This document shows, piece by piece, positions 19,313 to 48,045 of a DNA stretch of 48,045 nt (positions are counted from its first letter, which is position 1; each line of letters begins with the position of its first letter). Under the pieces are notes generated by a model. It had not been told where the DNA came from. It was given only the letters and a program-made list of their open reading frames with translations, and searched no databases. The translations under genes and the position numbers were made by a program. This DNA is from Lachnospiraceae bacterium MC2017 (GTDB lineage: Bacteria > Bacillota > Clostridia > Lachnospirales > Lachnospiraceae), in contig JNJK01000034.1 in NCBI GenBank assembly GCA_000701625.1, forward strand, positions 1-48,045, in the 5' to 3' direction.

Positions 19313-19380
19313 GACTTTATGTCCTCCGAGATCTGAACCCGTCGCCGCAGGCGAACTGAGTTCAAGTTACACTTCCTCGT
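19313..19380 (-). repeat. Truncated three-hairpin element (partial copy next to copy 1)
   Basis: This contains hairpin 1 and part of hairpin 2 of the element described at 19384-19506, ending inside hairpin 2 where the exporter promoter region begins. It lies directly next to the full copy, joined by TTCGTGCGGAAG / CACTTCCTCG ends, so the element can occur in tandem. Confidence 0.8.
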
Positions 19381-19383
19381 TCG

Positions 19384-19506
19384 TGCGGAAGATGGGGCGC
19401 TGGACGTCCTGTGGACGTCCGCTTAGCGCCGACCGAAGGGGACTTTATGTCCCCTGAGATCTGAACCCGTCGCCGCAGGCGACTGGGGGCAAGTCACACT
19501 TCCTCG
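19384..19506 (-). repeat. Three-hairpin element, full copy 1
   Basis: A 123-bp element found downstream of each tRNA-Leu. In minus-strand order it holds a long hairpin (TGAACCC-A-GTCGCC / GGCGAC-GGGTTCA), a second (AGGGGACA / GTCCCCT type around TAA), and a third (GGCGCT with inner GGACGTCC / GGACGTCC, then AGCGCC). The ends GGAAGTG...CATCTTCCGCA copy the tRNA-Leu acceptor ends, and the first hairpin contains sense and antisense T-arm sequence. I see no reading frame worth calling. Confidence 0.88.
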
Positions 19507-19512
19507 CAAACG

Positions 19513-19545
19513 AAAAAAGCAGATGCTCTCGCATCTGCCTTTTTT
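19513..19545 (-). terminator. Terminator after tRNA-Leu copy 1
   Basis: GCAGATGC-GAGA-GCATCTGC is flanked by A and T runs (minus: ...GCATCTGCTTTTTT). It is a classic Rho-independent terminator 6 bp past the tRNA 3' end and can act on both strands. Confidence 0.88.
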
Positions 19546-19550
19546 GTTCG

Positions 19551-19634
19551 TGCGGAAGATGGGACTTGAACCCACACAACGTTGCCGTCACAAGATCCTT
19601 AGTCTTGCTCGTCTGCCAATTCCGACACTTCCGC
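19551..19634 (-). tRNA. tRNA-Leu (anticodon AAG), copy 1
   Basis: An 84-base class II tRNA. Acceptor GCGGAAG/CTTCCGC, D-arm GAATTGGCAGA, anticodon stem CAAGA/TCTTG with loop CTAAGGA (anticodon AAG, reads CUU), a long variable arm (GACGGCAACGTT), T-loop TTCAAGT and discriminator A. CCA is not encoded. Three more identical copies lie at 23055, 25254 and 26789. A34 would need deamination to inosine by TadA to read other codons. Confidence 0.95.
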
Positions 19635-19679
19635 GTTCATTATATTGTTTCTCGACGCTTGTGCGCCGCAACGAAATGT

Positions 19680-19709
19680 ATAATACTACATATCGTATTT
19701 TTATGTCAA
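19680..19709 (-). promoter_or_regulatory. Promoter of tRNA-Leu copy 1
   Basis: The minus strand reads TTGACA, 18 bp, TATTAT. The same promoter and 5' leader (with a small GGCGC/GCGTC hairpin) are repeated before copies 2 and 3. Confidence 0.82.
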
Positions 19710-19744
19710 CACCTTTTTTAATATTTCACTCAAAAAATTTCCAA

Positions 19745-20347
19745 TCACTTAATTATATAGTTGTGGTGCTTAAACAGAATACATGAGATATCACCCTTAA
19801 CTTTCTCTTTGAGCATCAAATATCTTTTTCCACCCCAGTATGAAACGTCTTTCTTAGGGAAACACGAAATAATACCGTATGTTTCAGTCTCTTTTCTTCG
19901 GCGGATAAAAATATAATACTCCTCATCAGATTCTATTCGTTTGCACGTAATGAGATAATTAGCACGAATAACTGATTGATCATGATACTTCAACTTATAT
20001 ATTGATACTGTGAAATCATCCGAATCCAAATATTGTTCAAGATAACAAGCCTTTTCTATTCTCTGCCTTATATTATATCCAAGTGATTCATTATTGTAAT
20101 TTTCACTCTTAGAAATATATTCTTCAGTTATGTTACCATTTCTAATTTTACCTATAAGTAATTTCTTACTCTTTGGCAAATCTATATCCGTCAGATGTTG
20201 TAACCCTAAGATGTGAAATAAATCTTCTTCGCAAAATGTTATCGTAATATATGTTAGCGGCTTACTTTGCCCCGATGATAATACCAATCTATATTTATAA
20301 GCACTTATTTCAACAAAAGATTGTAATGCGTTTCTTAATAAATCCAT
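19745..20347 (-). CDS. PBECR4-like nuclease-domain protein (orphan)
   Basis: A 200-residue, Lys/Asn/Tyr/Ile-rich protein, more AT-rich than its neighbours. The segment DLFHILGLQHLTDI (about 42-55) and the general layout resemble the PBECR4 family (phage-encoded BECR-fold nuclease, related to barnase/EndoU/colicin E5/RelE). The enzyme class is inferred from that resemblance, and I cannot name catalytic residues. The gene lies directly behind a structured RNA and terminator (20353-20545). Its ribosome site (GGTGAAG) is squeezed between the terminator T run and the ATG. No protein antitoxin is adjacent. It could be a solitary phage-derived cargo gene. Confidence 0.6.
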   Translation of the reverse strand: MDLLRNALQSFVEISAYKYRLVLSSGQSKPLTYITITFCEEDLFHILGLQHLTDIDLPKSKKLLIGKIRNGNITEEYISKSENYNNESLGYNIRQRIEKACYLEQYLDSDDFTVSIYKLKYHDQSVIRANYLITCKRIESDEEYYIFIRRRKETETYGIISCFPKKDVSYWGGKRYLMLKEKVKGDISCILFKHHNYIIK

Positions 20348-20352
20348 TCTTC

Positions 20353-20545
20353 ACCACAAAAATGCCTTGCATCACTGCAAGGCATTTCATATCATAAATA
20401 TGTAACTTTCTTTCGCATAATGCTAGGCGCGCTATGGTAAGTTACCACCTTTATAGTCCTCCACGTTCACCACTTCGCACCGCGGCTTACGCTTCATAGG
20501 AGCATCCTCTTTAACCTCGGGACCAAGGGAGAAGCTTTCTTCTCA
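20353..20545 (-). ncRNA. Structured RNA of unknown family, promoter to terminator
   Basis: This about 190-nt unit is bounded by a good promoter (20551-20579) and a strong terminator, and has no credible reading frame. It begins GGTGAGAAG-AAA-GCTTCTCCC (a stable hairpin). GGTCC then pairs with GGACT around a branched domain containing GAGGATGCTCC and CCGCGGTGCGAAGTGG. A GTAACTT / AAGTTAC helix competes with TGGTAA / TTACCA. I could not match it to T-box, M-box, yybP, SAM, FMN, TPP, cobalamin, c-di-GMP, SRP, tmRNA or RNase P sequences. It could be a known Firmicutes RNA (6S-like or raiA-like) or a leader of the downstream nuclease-like gene. Confidence 0.6.
20358..20387 (-). terminator. Terminator between the structured RNA and the PBECR4-like gene
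   Basis: AAATGCCTTGCA-GTGA-TGCAAGGCATTT is a 12-bp perfect stem followed by TTTTT on the minus strand. It ends 11 bp before the start codon of the downstream gene, so expression of that gene needs read-through or regulation here. Confidence 0.9.
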
Positions 20546-20550
20546 CCTGT

Positions 20551-20579
20551 ATAATATCATGGTCTTATAAGAAATTCAA
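20551..20579 (-). promoter_or_regulatory. Promoter of the structured RNA
   Basis: The minus strand reads TTGAAT, 17 bp, TATTAT. The predicted start near 20545 falls at the first base pairs of the RNA's 5' hairpin. Confidence 0.75.
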
Positions 20580-20620
20580 TACATCTCCTATATTTTATAC
20601 CAGTATTTTCTCATGAAAAG

Positions 20621-20820
20621 TTACTGTTCACTCGCTTCCAGCTCGCTCACGTAACGGATTTTGCCAATTAAATCGCCTCCGGCGATGGGCAAAATCTAAT
20701 GGCTTTTCATCTTTCGTGGTCGTAAACAGCTAACGCATACACTCTCACTAAGCTCACATGCGTTCGCTAAGTGTTCGTAGCATCCGCAGCGTAGTGCTCC
20801 GTTTACGTGTGAACTGTTAC
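20621..20820. repeat. Foldback (MITE-like) intergenic element
   Basis: An approximately 200-bp non-coding block with imperfect terminal inverted repeats (GTTACTGTTCAC and GTGAACTGTTAC). Inside, GATTTTGCC/GGCAAAATC encloses ATCGCC/GGCGAT, and CGTAAAC/GTTTACG encloses AACGCAT/ATGCGTT. Part of its left end recurs at 22341-22390, and a similar GTAACAGTTCACA motif lies at 39942-39960. It ends 1 bp from the stop codon of the YbaK-type gene. It has no transposase and could be a MITE-like or small structured repeat. Confidence 0.7.
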
Positions 20821-20821
20821 C

Positions 20822-21259
20822 TCATGAAAACATCCCTATGATGTTATTCACTTTCATCAAGCTTTCAGGCGCTATTTTAAGAGTCAGATACTCATCTCCC
20901 GTTCCACCATAAACAAAGTCATGCTTCATTAATTTCTCATCAAAAAGACACGGCAAACCCAAACCAACCAGCGGAACCGAGCCAACTTCAAATCCCGTTT
21001 CTTCTTTTATCTTCTTCGGAGAAGCCATCTTTAACTTACTATATCCAAATTCTTCTTTTAATCTATCAAAATCAAGCCGCCCATTCTGTAAAGAAACCAT
21101 ACATCCTATCAAACCGTTTTCTGTTTCCAGAACAAACGTAGGCGCCGACTTCTCAACCGGATAATACCCCTCCGCATCCATCGCCGACCTGATCGGCTTG
21201 TCCTGCTTTATAAGCTCATATTCCACACCATATTTCTGAAGAATCTCTTCAACAAACAT
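20822..21259 (-). CDS. YbaK/ProX-type aminoacyl-tRNA deacylase domain protein
   Basis: The 145-residue protein matches the YbaK fold family, which hydrolyses mischarged tRNAs such as Cys- or Ala-tRNA(Pro). Typical features are APTFVLETENG, the Lys of the substrate pocket in YSKLKMASPKKIKEETGFEVGSVPLVGLGLP, and the C-terminal EYLTLKIAPESLMKVN. I chose the ATG at 21259, with AAAGGGGAAAG upstream. An in-frame ATG at 21304 behind GGGGGG is possible. The frame stays open further to 21439, but that part translates the tRNA-repeat remnant and is not real. It is island cargo, flanked by repeat elements. The substrate is unknown. Confidence 0.85.
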   Translation of the reverse strand: MFVEEILQKYGVEYELIKQDKPIRSAMDAEGYYPVEKSAPTFVLETENGLIGCMVSLQNGRLDFDRLKEEFGYSKLKMASPKKIKEETGFEVGSVPLVGLGLPCLFDEKLMKHDFVYGGTGDEYLTLKIAPESLMKVNNIIGMFS

Positions 21260-21344
21260 CTCTCTTTCCCCTTTATCCTTTACCCTTTTCCCAAAATTGT
21301 ACATTAAATAACCCCCCAGAGCAACCTCTCTCTGGGCAAAAGAA

Positions 21345-21475
21345 GACATAATGTCCCCTAAAATTCGAACACGTTTGCCGCAGGCGACTGGGGTCAAGTC
21401 ACACTTCCTCGCGAACAAAAAGAGCAGATGCTTTCGCATCTGCTCTTTTTGTTCGTGCGGAAGATGGGACTTGAA
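21345..21475 (-). pseudogene. Decayed fifth tRNA-Leu unit
   Basis: Only the last 20 bases of the tRNA-Leu remain (21456-21475, TGCGGAAGATGGGACTTGAA on plus). They are followed by an intact terminator (21413-21454, a 19-bp stem with TTTC loop) and a truncated three-hairpin element (21351-21410: hairpin 1 with a weakened stem and part of hairpin 2). The order and orientation are the same as in the four full units. It lies upstream of the YbaK-type gene. Confidence 0.85.
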
Positions 21476-21529
21476 GTCTAGAAAAAAATCATAATCCCAG
21501 TAAGAAAGGAGGTTCTGACACTGTCCCCC

Positions 21530-21557
21530 GCAAGGGAACCCCTTAGAGAACCCTTGC
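21530..21557 (-). terminator. Hairpin after the acetyltransferase gene
   Basis: GCAAGGG pairs with CCCTTGC around a 14-base loop, 36 bp past the GNAT stop. It lacks a clear T run, so terminator function is only possible. Confidence 0.4.
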
Positions 21558-21593
21558 TTCTTTTCTCCAAATCATTTTTTCAACTACTAAGGA

Positions 21594-22076
21594 TTATTTA
21601 GCAGTTTCATCGTTTTTTAACCTCGGTTCATTAGGAATTGTCATAGATAACTCGATTTCATTATCGTCTACTGCACCAGTCTCCTGAAATCCAAAGCTGT
21701 GATACAGCGCTAACGCTACTTCATTGTCCTTATTACAAGTAAGAGTAACTCGATTGGAGTCACCAAAAGGTTTGCTCCCAATATAAGACAATACTATCTT
21801 CAGAGCTGCTTTCCCGAAACCTTTTCCCTGATGCTTCACATCAATCATCATGTGCCATATGTCATATTCCGGAATATCATAATCGTAAATGACCATAACA
21901 TACCCAACCATTTCATCATCATTGTAGATTCCAAAAGGCTGACACTGATTCCGATACACATATGCCTGTGCAAGACTTCGAACGGGATGGGAAACAAACG
22001 CATCCTGTCCCGCGCCCAGCTTCAGATCAAATGCATCAATAAAATTGTTTTCTGTGATTTTTCTAAGATTAATCAT
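21594..22076 (-). CDS. GNAT-family N-acetyltransferase (diamine/spermidine acetyltransferase-like)
   Basis: A 160-residue GNAT enzyme that transfers acetyl from acetyl-CoA to an amine. The acetyl-CoA motif is VKHQGKGFGKAAL. The preceding strand YDIWHMMID and the C-terminal LYHSFGFQETGAVDDNEIELSM are typical of BltD/PaiA-like polyamine acetyltransferases. GGAGG lies 6 bp upstream of the ATG. It is preceded by a promoter, a 21-codon leader ORF and a terminator hairpin (22142-22316), the layout of attenuated antibiotic-resistance genes, so it may act on a drug or toxic amine. The substrate is inferred only. Confidence 0.88.
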   Translation of the reverse strand: MINLRKITENNFIDAFDLKLGAGQDAFVSHPVRSLAQAYVYRNQCQPFGIYNDDEMVGYVMVIYDYDIPEYDIWHMMIDVKHQGKGFGKAALKIVLSYIGSKPFGDSNRVTLTCNKDNEVALALYHSFGFQETGAVDDNEIELSMTIPNEPRLKNDETAK

Positions 22077-22141
22077 AGGATTCCTCCATAAATATTCGTT
22101 TGATAAGCAACAAAGGTCTTGTATGAATATCTATGAAGGAT

Positions 22142-22171
22142 AAAAAATACCGTGGTTAAAAAACCACGGTA
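22142..22171 (-). terminator. Attenuator hairpin ahead of the GNAT gene
   Basis: TACCGTGGTT / AACCACGGTA is a 10-bp perfect stem with a TTTT loop, followed by six T on the minus strand. It lies 14 bp after the leader ORF stop and 65 bp before the acetyltransferase start. An earlier stretch, ACCTCGG (22200-22206), can pair with CCGTGGT of its 5' arm (6 of 7 pairs) as an antiterminator. Confidence 0.82.
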
Positions 22172-22185
22172 CTATAGAAATCTAA

Positions 22186-22251
22186 TTAGAATGTAAAAGC
22201 CGAGGTCTTCAATAGATATTCAGATGTTATGTTTTTCTTGTTATTCATCAT
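22186..22251 (-). CDS. Leader peptide, 21 residues
   Basis: A short ORF, MMNNKKNITS...LLKTSAFTF, with GAGGTG 7 bp upstream of the ATG, a strong promoter (22288-22316) and a terminator 14 bp downstream. It lies ahead of the GNAT gene. The ribosome site (TGAGGT) can pair with ACCTCG inside the ORF, and that same region can instead pair with the terminator 5' arm. This is the three-part arrangement of a ribosome-controlled attenuator. It could also be a secreted or signalling peptide, but no export signal is seen. Confidence 0.62.
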   Translation of the reverse strand: MMNNKKNITSEYLLKTSAFTF

Positions 22252-22287
22252 AATTGAGCACCTCACTTTCTTTGGAATTTAGTTATT

Positions 22288-22316
22288 ATCATACAGGTTA
22301 GCCAGCGTTTATGCAA
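22288..22316 (-). promoter_or_regulatory. Promoter of the leader peptide / GNAT unit
   Basis: The minus strand reads TTGCAT, 17 bp, TATGAT. Transcription would begin near 22281, about 30 nt ahead of the leader ATG. Confidence 0.75.
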
Positions 22317-22340
22317 TAACTTTCGCATGCAAAAACTATA

Positions 22341-22390
22341 GCAGTTACAGTTCACTCGCTTACAGCTCGCTCACGTAACGGATTTTGCCA
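22341..22390. repeat. Partial copy of the foldback element
   Basis: About 47 bp match the left end of the 20621-20820 element with two or three differences (GTTAC-GTTCACTCGCTT, CAGCTCGCTCACGTAACGG, ATTTTGCCA). The stop codon of the acetyltransferase fragment lies within it, so the element end interrupted that gene. Confidence 0.75.
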
Positions 22391-22508
22391 TGACGACATC
22401 TTCATTCTGATACTCAATCTCAAATCCATTTTTTAGAAACAACTGATATGATGGATTATCAGCCGCAATATCACCATGTAAAACAGAAATGCAATTCTCC
22501 TTTGCTCC
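22371..22508 (-). pseudogene. C-terminal fragment of a second GNAT acetyltransferase
   Basis: The minus strand reads GIGAKENCISVLHGD...NPSYQLFLKNGFE...NEDVVMAKSVT, ending at a TGA at 22371. The NPSYQLFLKNGFE segment is typical of the last part of GNAT enzymes. There is no start and no acetyl-CoA motif. Its frame is closed upstream by a TAA at about 22509. It is a remnant. Confidence 0.65.
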
Positions 22509-22514
22509 AATACC

Positions 22515-22700
22515 TTATTTACTATTTTCCGCCAGTTGATAGCGTCTGCCTTTCGTTGCGCCATTATCGACAAGTTTTCCCATATCCACCAAGCGTCTTA
22601 GCAATTCTTTAGTTCGAGTTTCTTTAACATCAAGTATTTCTATGAAATCGCTACTACGATACCATTCTCCAGATTCCATAGATGCAAGGATAACATCCAT
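22515..22700 (-). pseudogene. C-terminal winged-helix fragment of an AAA/Fic-type regulator
   Basis: The 61 residues (MDVILASMESGEWYRSSDF...TRTKELLRRLVDMGKLVDNG...GRRYQL) resemble the C-terminal winged helix of large 'AlbA_2/ATP-binding' or Fic-family proteins. The frame extends upstream to about 22766 (DEKKRRKKITPKTQQQ) and then meets a stop, so the main part of the gene is missing. There is no convincing ribosome site at the ATG. It could be a small DNA-binding protein, but a truncated remnant is more likely. Confidence 0.55.
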
Positions 22701-22830
22701 CTGCTGTTGTGTTTTTGGTGTAATTTTTTTCCGTCGCTTTTTTTCGTCACTATGTCAGAGAATTACTGGATTCGCAGTACAAAACTAGCCAAGGAACTCT
22801 TAGGGGTCCCAAAAACGTTATCCATTTTTC

Positions 22831-22876
22831 CAAAAAAGAAAGCCCAGAATTGTTGATTTCTCAACAGTTCTGAGCC
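22831..22876 (-). terminator. Terminator-like hairpin after three-hairpin element copy 2
   Basis: CAGAACTGTTGA pairs with TCAACAATTCTG (one G-U) around GAAA, followed by GGCTTTCTTTTTT on the minus strand. It lies 12 bp beyond the end of element copy 2, so any transcript of that element would stop here. The neighbouring stretch 22767-22830 shows no gene. Confidence 0.75.
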
Positions 22877-22887
22877 TCTCATCTGCG

Positions 22888-23010
22888 TGCGGAAGATGGG
22901 GCGCTGGACGTCCTGTGGACGTCCGCTTAGCGCCGACCGAAGGGGACTTTATGTCCCCTGAGATCTGAACCCGTCGCCGCAGGCGACTGGGTTCAAGTCA
23001 CACTTCCTCG
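22888..23010 (-). repeat. Three-hairpin element, full copy 2
   Basis: A 123-bp copy almost identical to copy 1 (19384-19506), with the same three hairpins and the same tRNA-like ends. Here it is followed on the minus strand by its own terminator-like hairpin (22831-22876). Confidence 0.88.
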
Positions 23011-23011
23011 C

Positions 23012-23049
23012 GAACAAAAAGAGCAGATGCTCTCGCATCTGCCCTTTTT
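23012..23049 (-). terminator. Terminator after tRNA-Leu copy 2
   Basis: AGCAGATGC / GCATCTGC hairpin flanked by AACAAAAAG and CTTTTTGTT, 6 bp from the tRNA 3' end. Confidence 0.86.
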
Positions 23050-23054
23050 GTTCG

Positions 23055-23138
23055 TGCGGAAGATGGGACTTGAACCCACACAACGTTGCCGTCACAAGAT
23101 CCTTAGTCTTGCTCGTCTGCCAATTCCGACACTTCCGC
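23055..23138 (-). tRNA. tRNA-Leu (anticodon AAG), copy 2
   Basis: 84 bases, identical to copy 1 (19551-19634). It has the same cloverleaf and loop CTAAGGA, with no encoded CCA. Confidence 0.95.
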
Positions 23139-23183
23139 GTTTATTTTGTTGTTTCTCGACGCTTGTGCGCCGCAACGAAATGT

Positions 23184-23213
23184 ATAATACTACACATTGT
23201 ATTTTTATGTCAA
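23184..23213 (-). promoter_or_regulatory. Promoter of tRNA-Leu copy 2
   Basis: TTGACA, 18 bp, TATTAT on the minus strand. It differs from copy 1 by a few spacer bases. Confidence 0.82.
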
Positions 23214-23406
23214 CAATTTTTTCAAAAAAATTTCCGTAAATTATCCTTTACCTTTCTAAAGCGGCAATTATACGCAATCGAGTACCATTTTTTACAAAAA
23301 ATTGTATGATAAAAATAGAATATGTCGATAATAATAATGACGTAAAAAACTAACATACTTTTGACCATGTCATAACATTGCTATCTTAGAAGAAAACGGA
23401 GAAAAT

Positions 23407-23955
23407 ATGATCTTATTTGTAAATGCCTGCGTACGATCAGAATCAAGGACAAAGAAAATCGCTGATGCGCTTTTGAAGAAATTAGGTGAGAACTATATTG
23501 AAGTGAAACTCGAAGATATTGAGTTTCCGAAAACAACCGAAGATTTTTTGCATTATAGAGATACCTGCATAGAGAGTAGGGATTTTTCCGACAGCTATTT
23601 TGACTATGCCCAAGATTTCGCTCGGGCAGACACGATAGTTATCGCTGCGCCTTATTGGGATCTGTCTTTTCCTGCTGTTCTGAAACAATATATTGAGCAT
23701 ATAAATGTCCTCGGGATCACCTTCGAATATACAGCCGAAGGCTTTCCAAGAGGACTTTGCAATGCCAAAAAACTCTATTATGTGATGACTGCTGGTGGCA
23801 ATTATGTTCCCGGCAAATTCGGATTTGGGTATATCAAGACGCTTGCCGAAAGCTTCTACGGTATCGAAGACGTCGAACTCATAAAAGCTGTAGGTTTAGA
23901 TATTTACGGCACAGATGCAGATGCCATAGTCCGCGAGTGCATTGAAAAAATATAG
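23407..23955 (+). CDS. NAD(P)H-dependent FMN reductase / flavodoxin-fold quinone reductase
   Basis: This 182-residue protein has the Flavodoxin_2 fold (AcpD/azoreductase or NQO type). The N-terminal strand and phosphate loop are MILFVNACVRSESRTKKIA, the flavin-facing motif is IVIAAPYWDLSFPAVLKQYIEH, and TAGGNYVPG is typical of the family. It probably reduces quinones or azo compounds with NAD(P)H. GGAGAAA lies before the ATG. It is the only confident plus-strand gene in the window. It ends 2 bp from the stop of the C39-like peptidase gene, tail to tail. It is island cargo between tRNA-Leu copies 2 and 3. Confidence 0.9.
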   Translation: MILFVNACVRSESRTKKIADALLKKLGENYIEVKLEDIEFPKTTEDFLHYRDTCIESRDFSDSYFDYAQDFARADTIVIAAPYWDLSFPAVLKQYIEHINVLGITFEYTAEGFPRGLCNAKKLYYVMTAGGNYVPGKFGFGYIKTLAESFYGIEDVELIKAVGLDIYGTDADAIVRECIEKI

Positions 23956-23957
23956 CT

Positions 23958-24998
23958 TTAGGCACAATATCGCCAAATTCTTTTCGTCTGGGATGCCAAT
24001 TTGTCTGCATCCCAGTGTTTTTTGCTGTTTTTTCGACTATTCGGATCGTTTACAATGATCTTTCCATTTGAATCTACCCCTGTAAGTACAATAAAATGTC
24101 CCGATGTCGTAAAATCTCCGGGAGTCATTGAACATATCATAGGCGTAGAACTCGACAGATTATCTATTATATATTCCGGAGAAATGGTACCCTCAGAAAC
24201 ATTCAGTCCATAATGCCGCGCTCCTTCCGTCATCAGACTCCACGACGTTCCCTCTCCATATATGTAAAAATTTGAATCTGCCGAATACTTAGATACTTCA
24301 TAAGGATTGATGGCAGGATCGTTCTTTAATCCACACACTATCATGGCAAGGCACGTCGGACCACAACCTGCAACGCCTACATAGTTTCCGCCATAATCCT
24401 TATATCCCCATCTTTTATCCCATTGGATAAATAGTGGAATGTCCTGTTCTCTCATTTCAGATGTAACATCCATATCAAAGTCGGTATCTTTATATTTATT
24501 GAAATTTCTCACATATTCTTTTGCCTCAGGATATTTCTCTCCAAATTCACGCACATTCTCCGGAATGTCCGCTTCCTTTTCGCCCGGCAAAACGATTATG
24601 CTTTCCGAAATTTCCTCGATGGTTTCCCTCGACAAAAATTTGTACTCAGCGTTCAGCCCTGCAAGCACGACTAGTTCGACCAAAATAACAGCTATGATAA
24701 CTTTACCATACCCTGGTCTTTTTACATTCTGTTTATCTTTTCGTTTACCCAGCTTCGTTTTCTTAACAATCTTTAATACACTTATCGCACAGTAAGCAAA
24801 CAACACAGCTGCCAAAATCCCCACAGCTGATTTATCCGTGAGCCAACCAATGTCAATTTTATAAGATACCAAAAGCAACACTGCAAAAGTAAGAACTAAC
24901 AGCATCAACCCCTTTAATATCCATACTAAAACTCGTAAAAACCTCAAAACAATCTCCACAGTAATATTTTTTTTACTCAACGTCACACTTTCCAACAT
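23958..24998 (-). CDS. Membrane protein with C39-like papain-fold peptidase domain
   Basis: Three transmembrane helices (about 25-46, 55-77, 100-118) precede an extracellular Peptidase_C39_2-type domain (185-346). The active site appears intact: Cys in AGCGPTC (C212), His in SGHFIVLTG (H301), and the Asn/Asp of VNDPN (317-318). Such proteins are found as surface cysteine peptidases, and their substrates are usually unknown. The start is uncertain: the ATG at 24998 has no good ribosome site, and an internal GTG near codon 14 is an alternative. It has no transporter neighbour, so a bacteriocin-processing role is not supported. Confidence 0.82.
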   Translation of the reverse strand: MLESVTLSKKNITVEIVLRFLRVLVWILKGLMLLVLTFAVLLLVSYKIDIGWLTDKSAVGILAAVLFAYCAISVLKIVKKTKLGKRKDKQNVKRPGYGKVIIAVILVELVVLAGLNAEYKFLSRETIEEISESIIVLPGEKEADIPENVREFGEKYPEAKEYVRNFNKYKDTDFDMDVTSEMREQDIPLFIQWDKRWGYKDYGGNYVGVAGCGPTCLAMIVCGLKNDPAINPYEVSKYSADSNFYIYGEGTSWSLMTEGARHYGLNVSEGTISPEYIIDNLSSSTPMICSMTPGDFTTSGHFIVLTGVDSNGKIIVNDPNSRKNSKKHWDADKLASQTKRIWRYCA

Positions 24999-25058
24999 CC
25001 AATATACTCAAACACACCCTTTCCCGCAACCTTCCACACGCTGAAGATAGGTGCCAGA

Positions 25059-25085
25059 TGACTGGGTTCAATTCACACTTCCTCG
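25059..25085 (-). repeat. Truncated three-hairpin element next to copy 3
   Basis: TGACTGGGTTCAATTCACAC and TTCCTCG match the start of the element (minus orientation). The rest is replaced by unrelated sequence with faint similarity near 25042 (GAAGATAGG). It lies directly next to full copy 3. Confidence 0.65.
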
Positions 25086-25089
25086 TTCG

Positions 25090-25212
25090 TGCGGAAGATG
25101 GGGCGCTGGACGTCCTGTGGACGTCCGCTTAGCGCCGACCGAGGAGGACTTTATGTCCTCCGAGATCTGAACCCGTCGCCGCAGGCGACTGGGTTCAAGT
25201 CACACTTCCTCG
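25090..25212 (-). repeat. Three-hairpin element, full copy 3
   Basis: A 123-bp copy of the element. Hairpin 2 here is GGAGGAC / GTCCTCC, whereas copies 1 and 2 have AGGGGAC / GTCCCCT. Both sides changed together, so pairing is kept. Confidence 0.88.
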
Positions 25213-25213
25213 C

Positions 25214-25250
25214 GAAAAAAGAGCAGATGCTTTCGCATCTGCTCTTTTTT
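25214..25250 (-). terminator. Terminator after tRNA-Leu copy 3
   Basis: AAAAAAGAGCAGATGC-TTTC-GCATCTGCTCTTTTTT is a long stem with flanking A/T runs, right behind the tRNA 3' end. Confidence 0.87.
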
Positions 25251-25253
25251 TCG

Positions 25254-25337
25254 TGCGGAAGATGGGACTTGAACCCACACAACGTTGCCGTCACAAGATC
25301 CTTAGTCTTGCTCGTCTGCCAATTCCGACACTTCCGC
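25254..25337 (-). tRNA. tRNA-Leu (anticodon AAG), copy 3
   Basis: 84 bases, identical to copies 1 and 2. Confidence 0.95.
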
Positions 25338-25382
25338 GTTCATTATATTGTTTCTCGACGCTTGTGCGCCGCAACGAAATGT

Positions 25383-25412
25383 ATAATACTACACATTGTA
25401 TTTTTATGTCAA
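25383..25412 (-). promoter_or_regulatory. Promoter of tRNA-Leu copy 3
   Basis: TTGACA, 18 bp, TATTAT on the minus strand, nearly identical to that of copy 2. Confidence 0.82.
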
Positions 25413-25450
25413 CACTTTTTTATAATATTTTACCAAAAAATAAATCCGTA

Positions 25451-26554
25451 TCACACTGTTATATTTTTTGACTTCAGAAAGCTCTGTATATTCTCATAAC
25501 GTTTACATATAGCTTTGTGAGCAGGATCCGGTATCCAGCTTCCATTATGGTGATGCACTGTATAACTTAGCTCTGTATTATAAATGATCCCTGTATCAAA
25601 GCTTTTACCTGTCAGCACTTCAAAAGGATAAACCGTTATATCCCCTACAAACTGAAAACTTCCATTTTTCTCAAGTCCATGCTTCTCAATAACACTGGTA
25701 TAACGAACAGGACAGGTGGAATTATCCCAGGTTCCATCAGACTTTAAGTACGGTCTGTTTTCATAACTCTCACAGATTTCCTGAAAAATCGGGTGTCCGG
25801 GCCTTGATCCCATCCCGGAACCACATTCGATCCGATCAAGTGATTCAAAACTCATATATGCATCGTTATATAACAGGTCATCTATAGGACGAAGCATCTC
25901 AACATCAAGATCCATATAAATGCCGCCATACCTGCGAAGCAGATCTGCTCTCACATAATCCGATGCAAACGCCCAGTTCCTGTGCTCGACAGCCTGCTCA
26001 TAAAACAGGCAATAGTCCGGTTTGTACATTTCCCGATTCCAGATCATAATCTCATAATCCGGAGCATATTTTTTCCAGGATTCCAGGCATCTCTGATATA
26101 ACTCAGGCATCGGTTCTCCAGAAAGCCAGATTCCATGGATAACTTTTGGGATACGCATTGTATCATGCTTTCGGAAATTTGCTTTTGGCTTAATACCTGA
26201 TAAAAGCAACATATCCTCATACAAAAATTCCAAAAATATAGACGGAACAGCCTCGAACATCATAAACATTACGTCCGATCTCAGCTGTCCGATAATCTCC
26301 TCGTAGCCGGCAACAGTGACCAATATCATTGTACTGCTGCTATCCATCTCTGTAAGTTGTTCTTTCTCTATACCGAAATACTGTCTACCATCAATTTCAA
26401 CAGCTGTCCCGGAATCTCCTATAACCCCCTTAAAATTTTCAATCAACCCACTTTTTTGCAAAAAAGGAACTGTGCCATTTCGAAAATGCTTCCCACTCCC
26501 CCAGCATATAATATCCTTTGACTTTAGCTCCTCAAAATATTCACTAATTTTCAT
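25451..26554 (-). CDS. Glycosyltransferase with DXD motif (GT32/capsular polysaccharide type)
   Basis: A 367-residue cytoplasmic protein. Residues 1-115 form an unassigned, Rossmann-like N-terminal part (IICWGSGKHFRNG, TMILVTVAGYEEI). From 134 on it is a glycosyltransferase of the OCH1/GT32 sort: IPKVIHGIWLSGEPMPE, then FASDYVRADLLRRYGGIYMDLDVEM with the metal-binding DLD at 215-217, and VHHHNGSW near the end. It probably adds a sugar to a surface polysaccharide. It is alone between tRNA-Leu copies 3 and 4, without other capsule genes, so its acceptor is unknown. Confidence 0.87.
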   Translation of the reverse strand: MKISEYFEELKSKDIICWGSGKHFRNGTVPFLQKSGLIENFKGVIGDSGTAVEIDGRQYFGIEKEQLTEMDSSSTMILVTVAGYEEIIGQLRSDVMFMMFEAVPSIFLEFLYEDMLLLSGIKPKANFRKHDTMRIPKVIHGIWLSGEPMPELYQRCLESWKKYAPDYEIMIWNREMYKPDYCLFYEQAVEHRNWAFASDYVRADLLRRYGGIYMDLDVEMLRPIDDLLYNDAYMSFESLDRIECGSGMGSRPGHPIFQEICESYENRPYLKSDGTWDNSTCPVRYTSVIEKHGLEKNGSFQFVGDITVYPFEVLTGKSFDTGIIYNTELSYTVHHHNGSWIPDPAHKAICKRYENIQSFLKSKNITV

Positions 26555-26593
26555 CTTTTGTAGTCAAACTCCCGAAATCTGCCCCAGCCGCCA

Positions 26594-26622
26594 GCCGACT
26601 AGGGTTCACGTCACACTTCCAC
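26594..26622 (-). repeat. Truncated three-hairpin element next to copy 4
   Basis: GCCGACTAGGGTTCACGTCA and CACTTCCACG match, with several changes, the beginning of the element in minus orientation. It sits directly beside full copy 4, as at copies 1 and 3. Confidence 0.6.
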
Positions 26623-26627
26623 GTTCG

Positions 26628-26745
26628 TGCGGAAGATGGGGCGCTGGACGTCCAGTGGACGTCCGCTTAGCGCCGATCTCGGGGGACTTTATGTCCCCCG
26701 AGATCGGAACCGTCGCCGCAGGCGACTGGGTTCAAGTCACACTTC
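26628..26745 (-). repeat. Three-hairpin element, copy 4 (diverged)
   Basis: An approximately 118-bp copy. Hairpin 2 is extended to a 13-bp perfect stem (GATCTCGGGGGAC / GTCCCCCGAGATC), and hairpin 3 has one loop change. The tRNA-like left end is present. The right end is changed to CACTTCTGCATGC, where it meets a different terminator. Confidence 0.85.
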
Positions 26746-26752
26746 TGCATGC

Positions 26753-26786
26753 AAAAATAGCAGGTGCTCATGCACCTGCTATTTTT
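26753..26786 (-). terminator. Terminator after tRNA-Leu copy 4
   Basis: AAAAATAGCAGGTGC / GCACCTGCTATTTTT is a 15-bp stem with a 4-base loop. The stem sequence differs from that of copies 1-3, but pairing is complete, so changes on both sides compensate. Confidence 0.88.
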
Positions 26787-26788
26787 CA

Positions 26789-26872
26789 TGCGGAAGATGG
26801 GACTTGAACCCACACAACGTTGCCGTCACAAGATCCTTAGTCTTGCTCGTCTGCCAATTCCGACACTTCCGC
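26789..26872 (-). tRNA. tRNA-Leu (anticodon AAG), copy 4
   Basis: 84 bases, identical to the other three copies, although its promoter, 5' leader and terminator have diverged. Confidence 0.95.
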
Positions 26873-26916
26873 GTTCATATATATTATCGAAACGAACTCG
26901 TTTCGCAACGAAAAGT

Positions 26917-26945
26917 ATCATACCGCACCTCGTCCCATCTGTCAA
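26917..26945 (-). promoter_or_regulatory. Promoter of tRNA-Leu copy 4
   Basis: TTGACA, 17 bp, TATGAT on the minus strand. The spacer and 5' leader (with a CGAAACGA / TCGTTTCG hairpin) differ from copies 1-3. Confidence 0.82.
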
Positions 26946-26972
26946 CACAAAAATATTATTTTTTATTAAACT

Positions 26973-27332
26973 GGCAAATTCAGGATTAGATCCTACCGCT
27001 GTCATAGCTGTACCTGTCTTTGTATGCAAAAATGCCCACATCGCAAAGGCAAGCACTATAAAGAAAAGGATCGCTCCTGTAGGAATCATCAGATTTCCAA
27101 TATTTATCTGAAGTATCTTTGCAAGAGCCTGTGTGTAATACCCTTCAAGAGAAATCGTTGTTCTAAGACCCTTTCCTGCCATCCCCCATACCATGTTTGG
27201 ACTGTGATACGGAAGCAGCAGCCACATCATACACATCAGGGATACCGATGAGAAGCCAACATAAGTCGCTATCATCATCTCTCCACCCTTTATCTTGTTC
27301 AGGACTGTCATGATACTGACCCACCTTCTCAT
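26973..27332 (-). pseudogene. Fragment of a BMP/simple-sugar-type ABC transporter permease
   Basis: From 27332 (ATG after AAAGGAGG) the frame reads LNKIKGGEMMIATYVGF..., SLEGYYTQALAKI, FFIVLAFAMWAFLHTKTG and TAMTAVGSNPEFA. These are recognisable parts of the permeases that import nucleosides or sugars with BMP-type lipoproteins. The conserved part ends at about 26973, just where the promoter of tRNA-Leu copy 4 begins. Only about 120 of some 350 residues remain, and the normal N-terminal helices also seem missing. The frame continues through the tRNA to 26826, but that is not meaningful. Confidence 0.72.
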
Positions 27333-27423
27333 AATTACTTTCCTCCTTTGACGTTTTAAAGTACCGATAAATAAAGTATATCGACAATACAAAACATCAA
27401 ATTAAGCAAGAAAGACTAACAAA

Positions 27424-47868: not shown

Positions 47869-48045
47869 TTACATAACCATCAATGCATCTGCAACAAGCT
47901 CGATTTCTTTTTGCTTTTCATCCTCTGTAGTTGTAACGTACAAATTCATTGTTATCCCAATGTTTGAATGACCCAGAATCTTTTGAAGTGTCTTAGGCTT
48001 CATTCCTGCTTCAATGCAGCGCGTAGCAAACGTATGCCTCAAAAT
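47869..48045 (-). CDS. Tyrosine recombinase/integrase, C-terminal part (cut by window edge)
   Basis: The 58 visible residues (ILRHTFATRCIEAGMKPKTL, QKILGHSNIGITMNLYV...) contain the conserved H-x-x-R region, the LGHS histidine and the tyrosine nucleophile of phage-type tyrosine recombinases, resembling Tn916/phage integrases of Firmicutes. The rest of the gene lies beyond position 48045. It suggests an integrative element or prophage inserted upstream of ychF, with its integrase gene at this end. Confidence 0.88.
   Translation of the reverse strand: MLRHTFATRCIEAGMKPKTLQKILGHSNIGITMNLYVTTTEDEKQKEIELVADALMVM

Follow-up and report, generated by a model that had tools for sequence, protein, structure and literature searches.

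The stretch of DNA analysed here, referred to below as the window (bases 1-48045, 48,045 nucleotides), belongs to contig C29 of Lachnospiraceae bacterium MC2017 and carries an array of tRNA-Leu(AAG) units interleaved with unrelated genes. The source genome (G000) comprises 4.26 Mb in 56 contigs. Related genomes of the genus are labelled G0xx, and genus-wide pattern searches cover 48 genomes. ARAGORN called four tRNA-Leu(aag) genes, all on the minus strand, whose first 84 bases are identical. Read from high to low coordinates, each unit of ~330 bp consists of a TTGACA promoter, the tRNA gene, a terminator and a hairpin element of 120-128 bp, and together the units span 19382-26947:

26626-26947, minus strand: unit 4, resident-like, with its own promoter type, tRNA-Leu(AAG) at 26789-26872, terminator, and element at 26626-26745
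25088-25414, minus strand: unit 3, with cassette-type promoter, tRNA-Leu(AAG) at 25253-25337, terminator, and element at 25088-25214
22885-23215, minus strand: unit 2, with cassette-type promoter, tRNA-Leu(AAG) at 23054-23138, terminator, and element at 22885-23012
19382-19711, minus strand: unit 1, with cassette-type promoter, tRNA-Leu(AAG) at 19550-19634, terminator, and element at 19382-19507

Over their whole length, units 1 to 3 are 95-97% identical in pairwise comparison, and unit 4 is 84-85% identical to the others, its promoter being resident-like and theirs of the cassette type. A search of the genome with unit 2 returned 20 matches, with most of the unit matched at the four places in the window only; the remaining tRNA-Leu matches (C21, C26 and twice in C5) have the anticodons CAA, TAG and CAG. 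The tRNA calls, the unit alignment and this search confirm the preliminary description of the locus, which had reported four promoter/tRNA-Leu/terminator/element units in a single orientation. It had overlooked second, partial element copies that trail units 1, 3 and 4 (19313-19379, 25060-25085 and 26571-26623). In unit 2, the tRNA 3′ end within the element directly abuts other DNA. An assembly artefact, raised there as a possible objection, is unlikely, since comparable arrays lie within 382- and 397-kb contigs of two genomes assembled independently, G014 and G066.

A conserved junction in the tRNA T-loop

A further partial copy at 21345-21475 is 91% identical to positions 147-276 of unit 2. 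It was first taken for a decayed remnant; the copy is real, but it reads as a precise T-loop junction. The features around it are as follows:

22852-22886, minus strand: candidate left end, a terminator-like CTCAGAACTGTTGAGAAATCAAC stretch after the unit-2 element, common to G012 among the loci examined
21476-21542, minus strand: conserved right end of the putatively integrated segment, ~44 nt and then 23 nt to the cut, with a 37-nt pattern at 21504-21540
21455-21475, minus strand: attR-like copy of the tRNA-Leu 3′ end, starting exactly at the T-loop TTCAAG (21475) and followed by the terminator and a partial element (21345-21413)

The 20-nt sequence from the T-loop to the acceptor end was found at 29 places in 18 of the 48 genomes. 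Four of these 29 listed matches are truncated copies (G000, G012, G007 and G010), all cut at the same base. Before the cut, G000, G012 and G007 have in common a conserved end of ~44 nt located 22-23 nt from it; the truncated copy of G010 is without this end. The 37-nt pattern (≤3 mismatches) occurs once each in 3/48 genomes, always at the cut, and its reversed control in none of the 48. A pattern with the junction spacing held fixed retrieved 2/48 genomes and missed G007, where the spacing is one base shorter.

The cargo at the junction consists of TrkH, TrkA, a histidine kinase and a response regulator in G012, and of a GNAT acetyltransferase in G000. The complete G012 element measures 5.5 kb from tRNA to junction, and in G007 about 170 bp of element sequence precede the contig end. 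The terminator-like left end lies after the unit-2 element in G000 and, among the loci examined, after the junction in G012. By its sequence, the junction at 21475 is an attR-like scar of T-loop-specific integration, and at least one cargo segment looks site-specifically integrated. A displaced tRNA 3′ fragment marking the far end, as in genomic islands, is thus present for one segment (21455-21475), with parallels in G012, G007 and G010.

The locus in related genomes

The number of tRNA-Leu(AAG) copies beside ArsP_2 and a 519-residue neighbour is one in G036, two in G065, three in G014, and four in G066 and G000. MatE lies on the other side in G000, G014 and G066, and GDH was also seen in G066. 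In G014, three tRNA units and one tRNA-less unit have HEAT-repeat, reductase, editing-domain and C39 genes between them; an MCP gene separates ArsP_2 from the array, and DUF6672, permease and ABC-transporter genes stand between the last unit and MatE. The four units of G066 accompany a flippase, a polysaccharide deacetylase, AMP-binding and MerR/GyrI proteins and one unassigned gene. The reductase and the editing protein are common to G000 and G014, in reversed order. G036 has its single tRNA-Leu(AAG), without the element, beside ArsP_2 and no match to the hairpin core anywhere in the genome.

A scan of 17 long loci from relatives found multiple tRNA-Leu(AAG) genes only in the G014 and G066 arrays and in the G065 pair, whose two copies have a run of N between them. 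Gene content therefore varies beside a conserved tRNA locus, as in tandem islands. The comparison across relatives that had been proposed as a test of the array gave a positive outcome, with 1, 2, 3 and 4 copies beside ArsP_2 and different or re-ordered genes.

Exchange between units

Promoter and terminator types were assigned to the 11 units of G000, G014 and G066 by visual inspection of the alignment, and all four possible pairings of the two are present. The unit nearest MatE carries the resident-like promoter in all three of these multi-unit genomes. Resident-type terminators were observed in G000 unit 4 and in G014 units 3 and 1; G014 unit 1 has a cassette-type promoter, and G066 unit 4 pairs a resident-like promoter with a cassette-type terminator. 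The four combinations therefore indicate exchange between promoter and terminator, i.e., at the tRNA. The breakpoint, and hence the choice between RecA and a T-loop recombinase, is not readable from the alignment because the tRNA is identical throughout. The earlier view of a cassette-type region that grew by insertion at, or recombination between, units is largely supported by copy number, cargo and this exchange; it was incomplete with regard to the T-loop junction.

The hairpin element and its core

In its 5′ part the element repeats the tRNA 3′ end imperfectly and in inverted orientation; a forward T-arm half, a hairpin module (the core) and the remaining portion of the tRNA 3′ end follow. 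The element as a whole is an inverted plus a direct copy of this 3′ end, and its T-loop holds a palindromic DNA module. Its predicted fold is a four-way junction closed by an acceptor-like stem, and this fold is better than those of 200/200 dinucleotide shuffles (z −7.3); the fold of tRNA and element together is likewise better than shuffles (z −9.8). The module reads, in order, CGGTCGGCGCTAARC, stem, CCACNGG, stem, AGCGCC, and is present in 34/48 genus genomes (≤3 mismatches), with 0 matches in 48 for the backward control pattern. The 123-bp structured element of the preliminary description thus exists, but it is not peculiar to tRNA-Leu, its core being a genus-wide hairpin. No Rfam family matched.

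Covariation was assessed on 57 of 71 distinct 40-mers; 11 opposite-strand reads of included matches, 2 copies with altered spacing and 1 truncated copy were dropped. Standard pairs make up 98.2% of the 798 pair cells of these 57 distinct copies. Both sides changed in 133 cells, compared with a shuffle mean of 32.6 and none of 500 shuffles as high. Since much of the outer stem and the CC/GG beside the loop were prescribed by the search patterns, the unbiased part of this test is the remaining inner stem only. Shifting the pairing partners lowers all covariation measures, of which one of the five (further pair types) is less extreme, with 11/500 shuffles. Only 7 of the 798 cells are G-U pairs, versus 777 Watson-Crick pairs. 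This points to a hairpin better explained as a DNA palindrome than as RNA, because strong covariation is accompanied by few G-U pairs.

Of 30 loci taken from the genus search for the hairpin, 29 were scanned for tRNAs. ARAGORN called a tRNA within 400 bp of the hairpin in 14 of the 29; in 3 others the flanks are tRNA T-arm halves with no tRNA called that near, and 12 have neither. The tRNAs concerned are Leu, Lys, Arg, Gly and Met, the last in opposite orientation. The hairpin is usually flanked by the T-arm halves of the adjoining tRNA at the Leu(AAG), Lys, Arg and Gly sites; exceptions in which a flank does not fit cleanly were seen at L084, at L090 and at the first of the L089 copies. Two hairpin copies lie in tandem inside the T-loop of a tRNA-Arg in G026. 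A tandem array of elements, repeating every 128 bp, was seen in G014 (L050:7796-8263), and a similar one is cut off by the end of contig C88 in G009.

A contig scan beyond the genus set detected the hairpin in 11 stretches of three named genomes (Lachnospiraceae bacterium FE2018, Eubacterium sp. RGIG4369 and Clostridiales bacterium U_127004), only one of which has a called tRNA, >6 kb from the hairpin. Together with Pfam matches to a PolC-type DNA polymerase and to DUF5688, these named records suggest that the host is a Lachnospiraceae relative. The association of hairpin and tRNA is thus strong in the genus and not universal. The mean flank pairing of 47 distinct insertions is −9.8 kcal/mol, compared with −8.9 (standard deviation 0.42) after reshuffling, with 5/500 as low. 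This effect is weak and open to G+C bias, and a location within palindromes is not claimed as a general property of the hairpin.

Three observations concern the hairpin at other places. G014 unit 2 (L050:11771-12140) and G066 unit 1 (L122:3605-3876) have the same element layout and an almost wholly different hairpin sequence. G021 has about 30 hairpin matches, many of them <100 bases from contig ends, where the hairpin is probably part of larger repeats at which the assembly is interrupted. The tRNA cluster at G000:C8:85000-92000 (L123) contains a His-Arg pair twice, with a tRNA-Lys 3′ end and the hairpin element between the copies, and is perhaps a second, smaller tRNA duplication at a hairpin element.

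Recombinase searches

The Pfam scan detected no recombinase among 10 open reading frames (ORFs) of the island, and a six-frame Phage_integrase search of the genome gave 13 matches, none in the island and the nearest at 47926-48042. The earlier statement that the island has no recombinase gene is borne out for these ORFs and for Phage_integrase in six frames, other recombinase families not having been searched in that way. The match at 47926-48042 covers the C-terminal portion of a phage-type integrase and lies at the contig edge; a piece with the same score is present at G000:C33:4-120, and this is probably a repeated integrase at an assembly break. No integrase domain was found in the five ORFs scanned of the G012 element, and the three Phage_integrase matches of G012 are all on other contigs; the integrase gene of a typical tandem island was thus found neither in the island nor in the G012 element. 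Y1-transposase ends were considered as a source of the hairpin; Y1_Tnp has 14 matches in the source genome, and no core was noticed beside the four loci inspected by eye.

A parallel was observed at tRNA-Gly. Contig C8 of G028 holds, over 31 kb and with genes between them, four tRNA-Gly 3′ ends with the core and two cut at TTCGAA. A tyrosine recombinase-like gene ends 118 bp from one of these 3′ ends, and a different 3′ end has an integrase fragment at a distance of about 185 bp. In the G028 stretches examined, no gene for tRNA-Gly was called. In G019, a tRNA-Gly, the element and a frame 43% identical to the G028 recombinase occur in a row.

Origin of the array

tRNA genes are frequent landing sites of genomic islands, and usually only a scrap of their 3′ end is copied. 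Here the duplication is not confined to the 3′ part, and whole promoter-tRNA-terminator units are repeated. The array is probably a tandem (additive) genomic island at tRNA-Leu(AAG), with the T-loop as breakpoint and whole tRNA units as cargo separators. Differing copy number, cargo turnover, unit exchange and the conserved T-loop junction are consistent in supporting this reading. An integrase acting in trans would join a circular cargo element to the tRNA T-loop; the element would bring a 3′ end of its own that makes the upstream tRNA complete again, and a copy of the 3′ end would be left as attR. Homologous recombination between units is possible because they share ~330 bp, and either this or T-loop recombination between two intact tRNAs could then act. 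The blocks moved would comprise cargo, promoter, complete tRNA, terminator and hairpin element, and no tRNA would be broken. The conserved element end at the T-loop, with no integrase nearby, suggests that the cassettes are moved in trans.

Several observations weigh against a tandem island. A T-loop junction is present at only one cargo segment of the window; the others run from the element into a complete promoter-tRNA, an arrangement that homologous recombination alone could produce, and the identity of the tRNA copies means that internal breakpoints cannot be placed. The left end was seen in two genomes only among the loci examined. No integrase is linked to the tRNA-Leu elements, and that of G028 is a marginal Pfam match (27.6 bits, cut-off 27.1). 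The neighbours in G036 and in G065 have an identity of only 42-50%, no MatE was found in the stretch examined of either genome, and a run of N lies between the two G065 tRNAs.

Duplication of the tRNA-Leu unit followed by RecA-dependent exchange alone, between the copies and with DNA of relatives, is a possible though rather unlikely origin, in which the T-loop junction would be an old island scar that plays no part in the remainder of the array. The units are 84-97% identical over about 330 bp, promoter/terminator chimaeras need no recombinase, and none was found in the island by the searches above. What such exchange leaves unexplained is the cut of all truncated tRNA-Leu ends at the same base (4/4 among the listed matches) and the conserved end at this cut in three genomes. 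The four-way-junction fold with its acceptor-like closing stem, together with a core stem strongly conserved by covariation, would also suit a functional, tRNA-like RNA produced by read-through, the units being kept for this RNA and the cargo being incidental. However, a terminator hairpin stands between tRNA and element, an RNA helix would be expected to have more G-U pairs, copies of the core are also found away from tRNAs, and no Rfam match was obtained, which makes this origin improbable. The least probable account is selection for tRNA dosage, whereby extra tRNA-Leu(AAG) copies aid translation and genes gathered between them by chance. The four copies are indeed intact and identical over 84 bases; yet multiple copies are restricted to three of the 17 long relative loci (G014, G066 and G065), and neither cargo turnover nor T-loop junctions are accounted for.

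A more far-reaching, and doubtful, proposal is a gene-cassette system in which a complete working tRNA gene is the recombination site. Each cassette would consist of cargo, promoter, tRNA, terminator and hairpin element, and an integrase in trans would recombine in the T-loop, inserting or removing cassettes beside any copy and leaving the tRNAs intact. Were this so, the cost of using an essential gene as attachment site would vanish and cassettes could pile up.

Relation to known systems

Integrons and integrase-less attC arrays (CALIN) also have cargo separated by structured repeats in one orientation, with no integrase nearby. The layout is alike, but the window elements are without attC R-box motifs, and the separator here contains a working tRNA gene. 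Integron membership was rejected, the attC boxes RYYYAAC/GTTRRRY being absent on both strands of the four elements and of unit 2. REP/REPIN-type repeats are short, dispersed, palindromic and non-coding. The core resembles them in all these respects, with its covarying hairpin, and has many copies per genome in some species; it differs in that many copies lie in tRNA T-loops and that no cognate transposase was identified at the four of 14 Y1_Tnp loci inspected. A phage or plasmid origin of the unit was likewise rejected: the unit matches 23 phage and 97 plasmid records, in no case over 80% of its length, and in the ten phage and ten plasmid matches listed the similarity is confined to roughly the tRNA part. 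The core pattern was found in 3 IMG/VR contigs, where the stretch examined contains no called tRNA, and the exact 58-nt tRNA-Leu pattern had 0 matches in IMG/VR.

The closest counterpart is found in Dehalococcoides, where, according to passages of PMC3146451, several tandem islands lie beside one essential RNA gene, ssrA, bounded by direct repeats of its 3′ end. Insertion there is in the T-loop, a conserved motif stands just upstream of the repeat, and some islands are without an integration module (PMC3146451). The array has in common with these passages the tandem islands at an RNA gene, the T-loop insertion, the conserved end by the repeat and integrase-less members. In the Dehalococcoides islands so described, however, only the 20-bp 3′ end is repeated and many islands carry a serine recombinase, whereas the array repeats whole tRNA genes together with promoters and the hairpin element, and the searches found no integrase. 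By analogy with these passages, the best reading appears to be a tandem island of the Dehalococcoides ssrA kind; as the recombinase there is a serine recombinase, the type acting here is not fixed by the comparison.

The additive flexible genomic islands at tRNA-Lys of Methylophilaceae are separated by repeats of the last 20 bp of the tRNA (PMC10872708). They are alike in having tRNA 3′ ends as separators, and whole tRNA units or a hairpin element are not described in the passages of PMC10872708 considered. Mycobacteriophage Ms6 integrates at tRNA-Ala with its crossover in the T-loop (PMC1762012); the crossover is alike, but Ms6 is a phage with its own integrase and a single insertion.

What is new here is the repetition of complete tRNA genes and a hairpin element along with cargo. 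No description of whole-tRNA cassettes or of the hairpin family was recognised among the open-licence papers listed. Species with one, two, three and four copies are available for comparison at the locus, which makes island accretion at an indispensable gene testable. The covarying hairpin, present in T-loop copies of several tRNAs, is a DNA repeat family, and searches of Rfam and the open-licence literature gave no name for it.

Cargo and other features of the window

The following genes, assigned by Pfam, lie between the units:

25451-26554, minus strand: glycosyltransferase with DXD-type sugar-binding region, 367 residues
23958-24998, minus strand: C39-like peptidase, 346 residues
23407-23955, plus strand: flavodoxin-fold reductase, 182 residues
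21594-22076, minus strand: GNAT acetyltransferase, 160 residues, cargo of the putatively integrated segment
20822-21439, minus strand: aminoacyl-tRNA editing domain protein, 205 residues as listed, its upstream end extending into the partial element
19745-20347, minus strand: PBECR4 nuclease-like protein, 200 residues

The four cargo segments have a G+C content of 37.3-40.1%, compared with 42.5% and 41.7% in the two flanks. This low G+C content would fit a foreign origin, for which it is weak evidence alone.

A 48-nt direct repeat at 20619-20666 and 22343-22390 is 96% identical between its copies. The stretch that starts with the copy at 20619-20666 extends to near 20820, where its own beginning recurs as an inverted match, and may be a miniature palindromic element. 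An ORF fragment at 26971-27392 is 99% identical over 111 residues to a full-length, 364-residue permease-like protein of G014, and the remainder of the G014-type transporter operon seems to be absent at this place.

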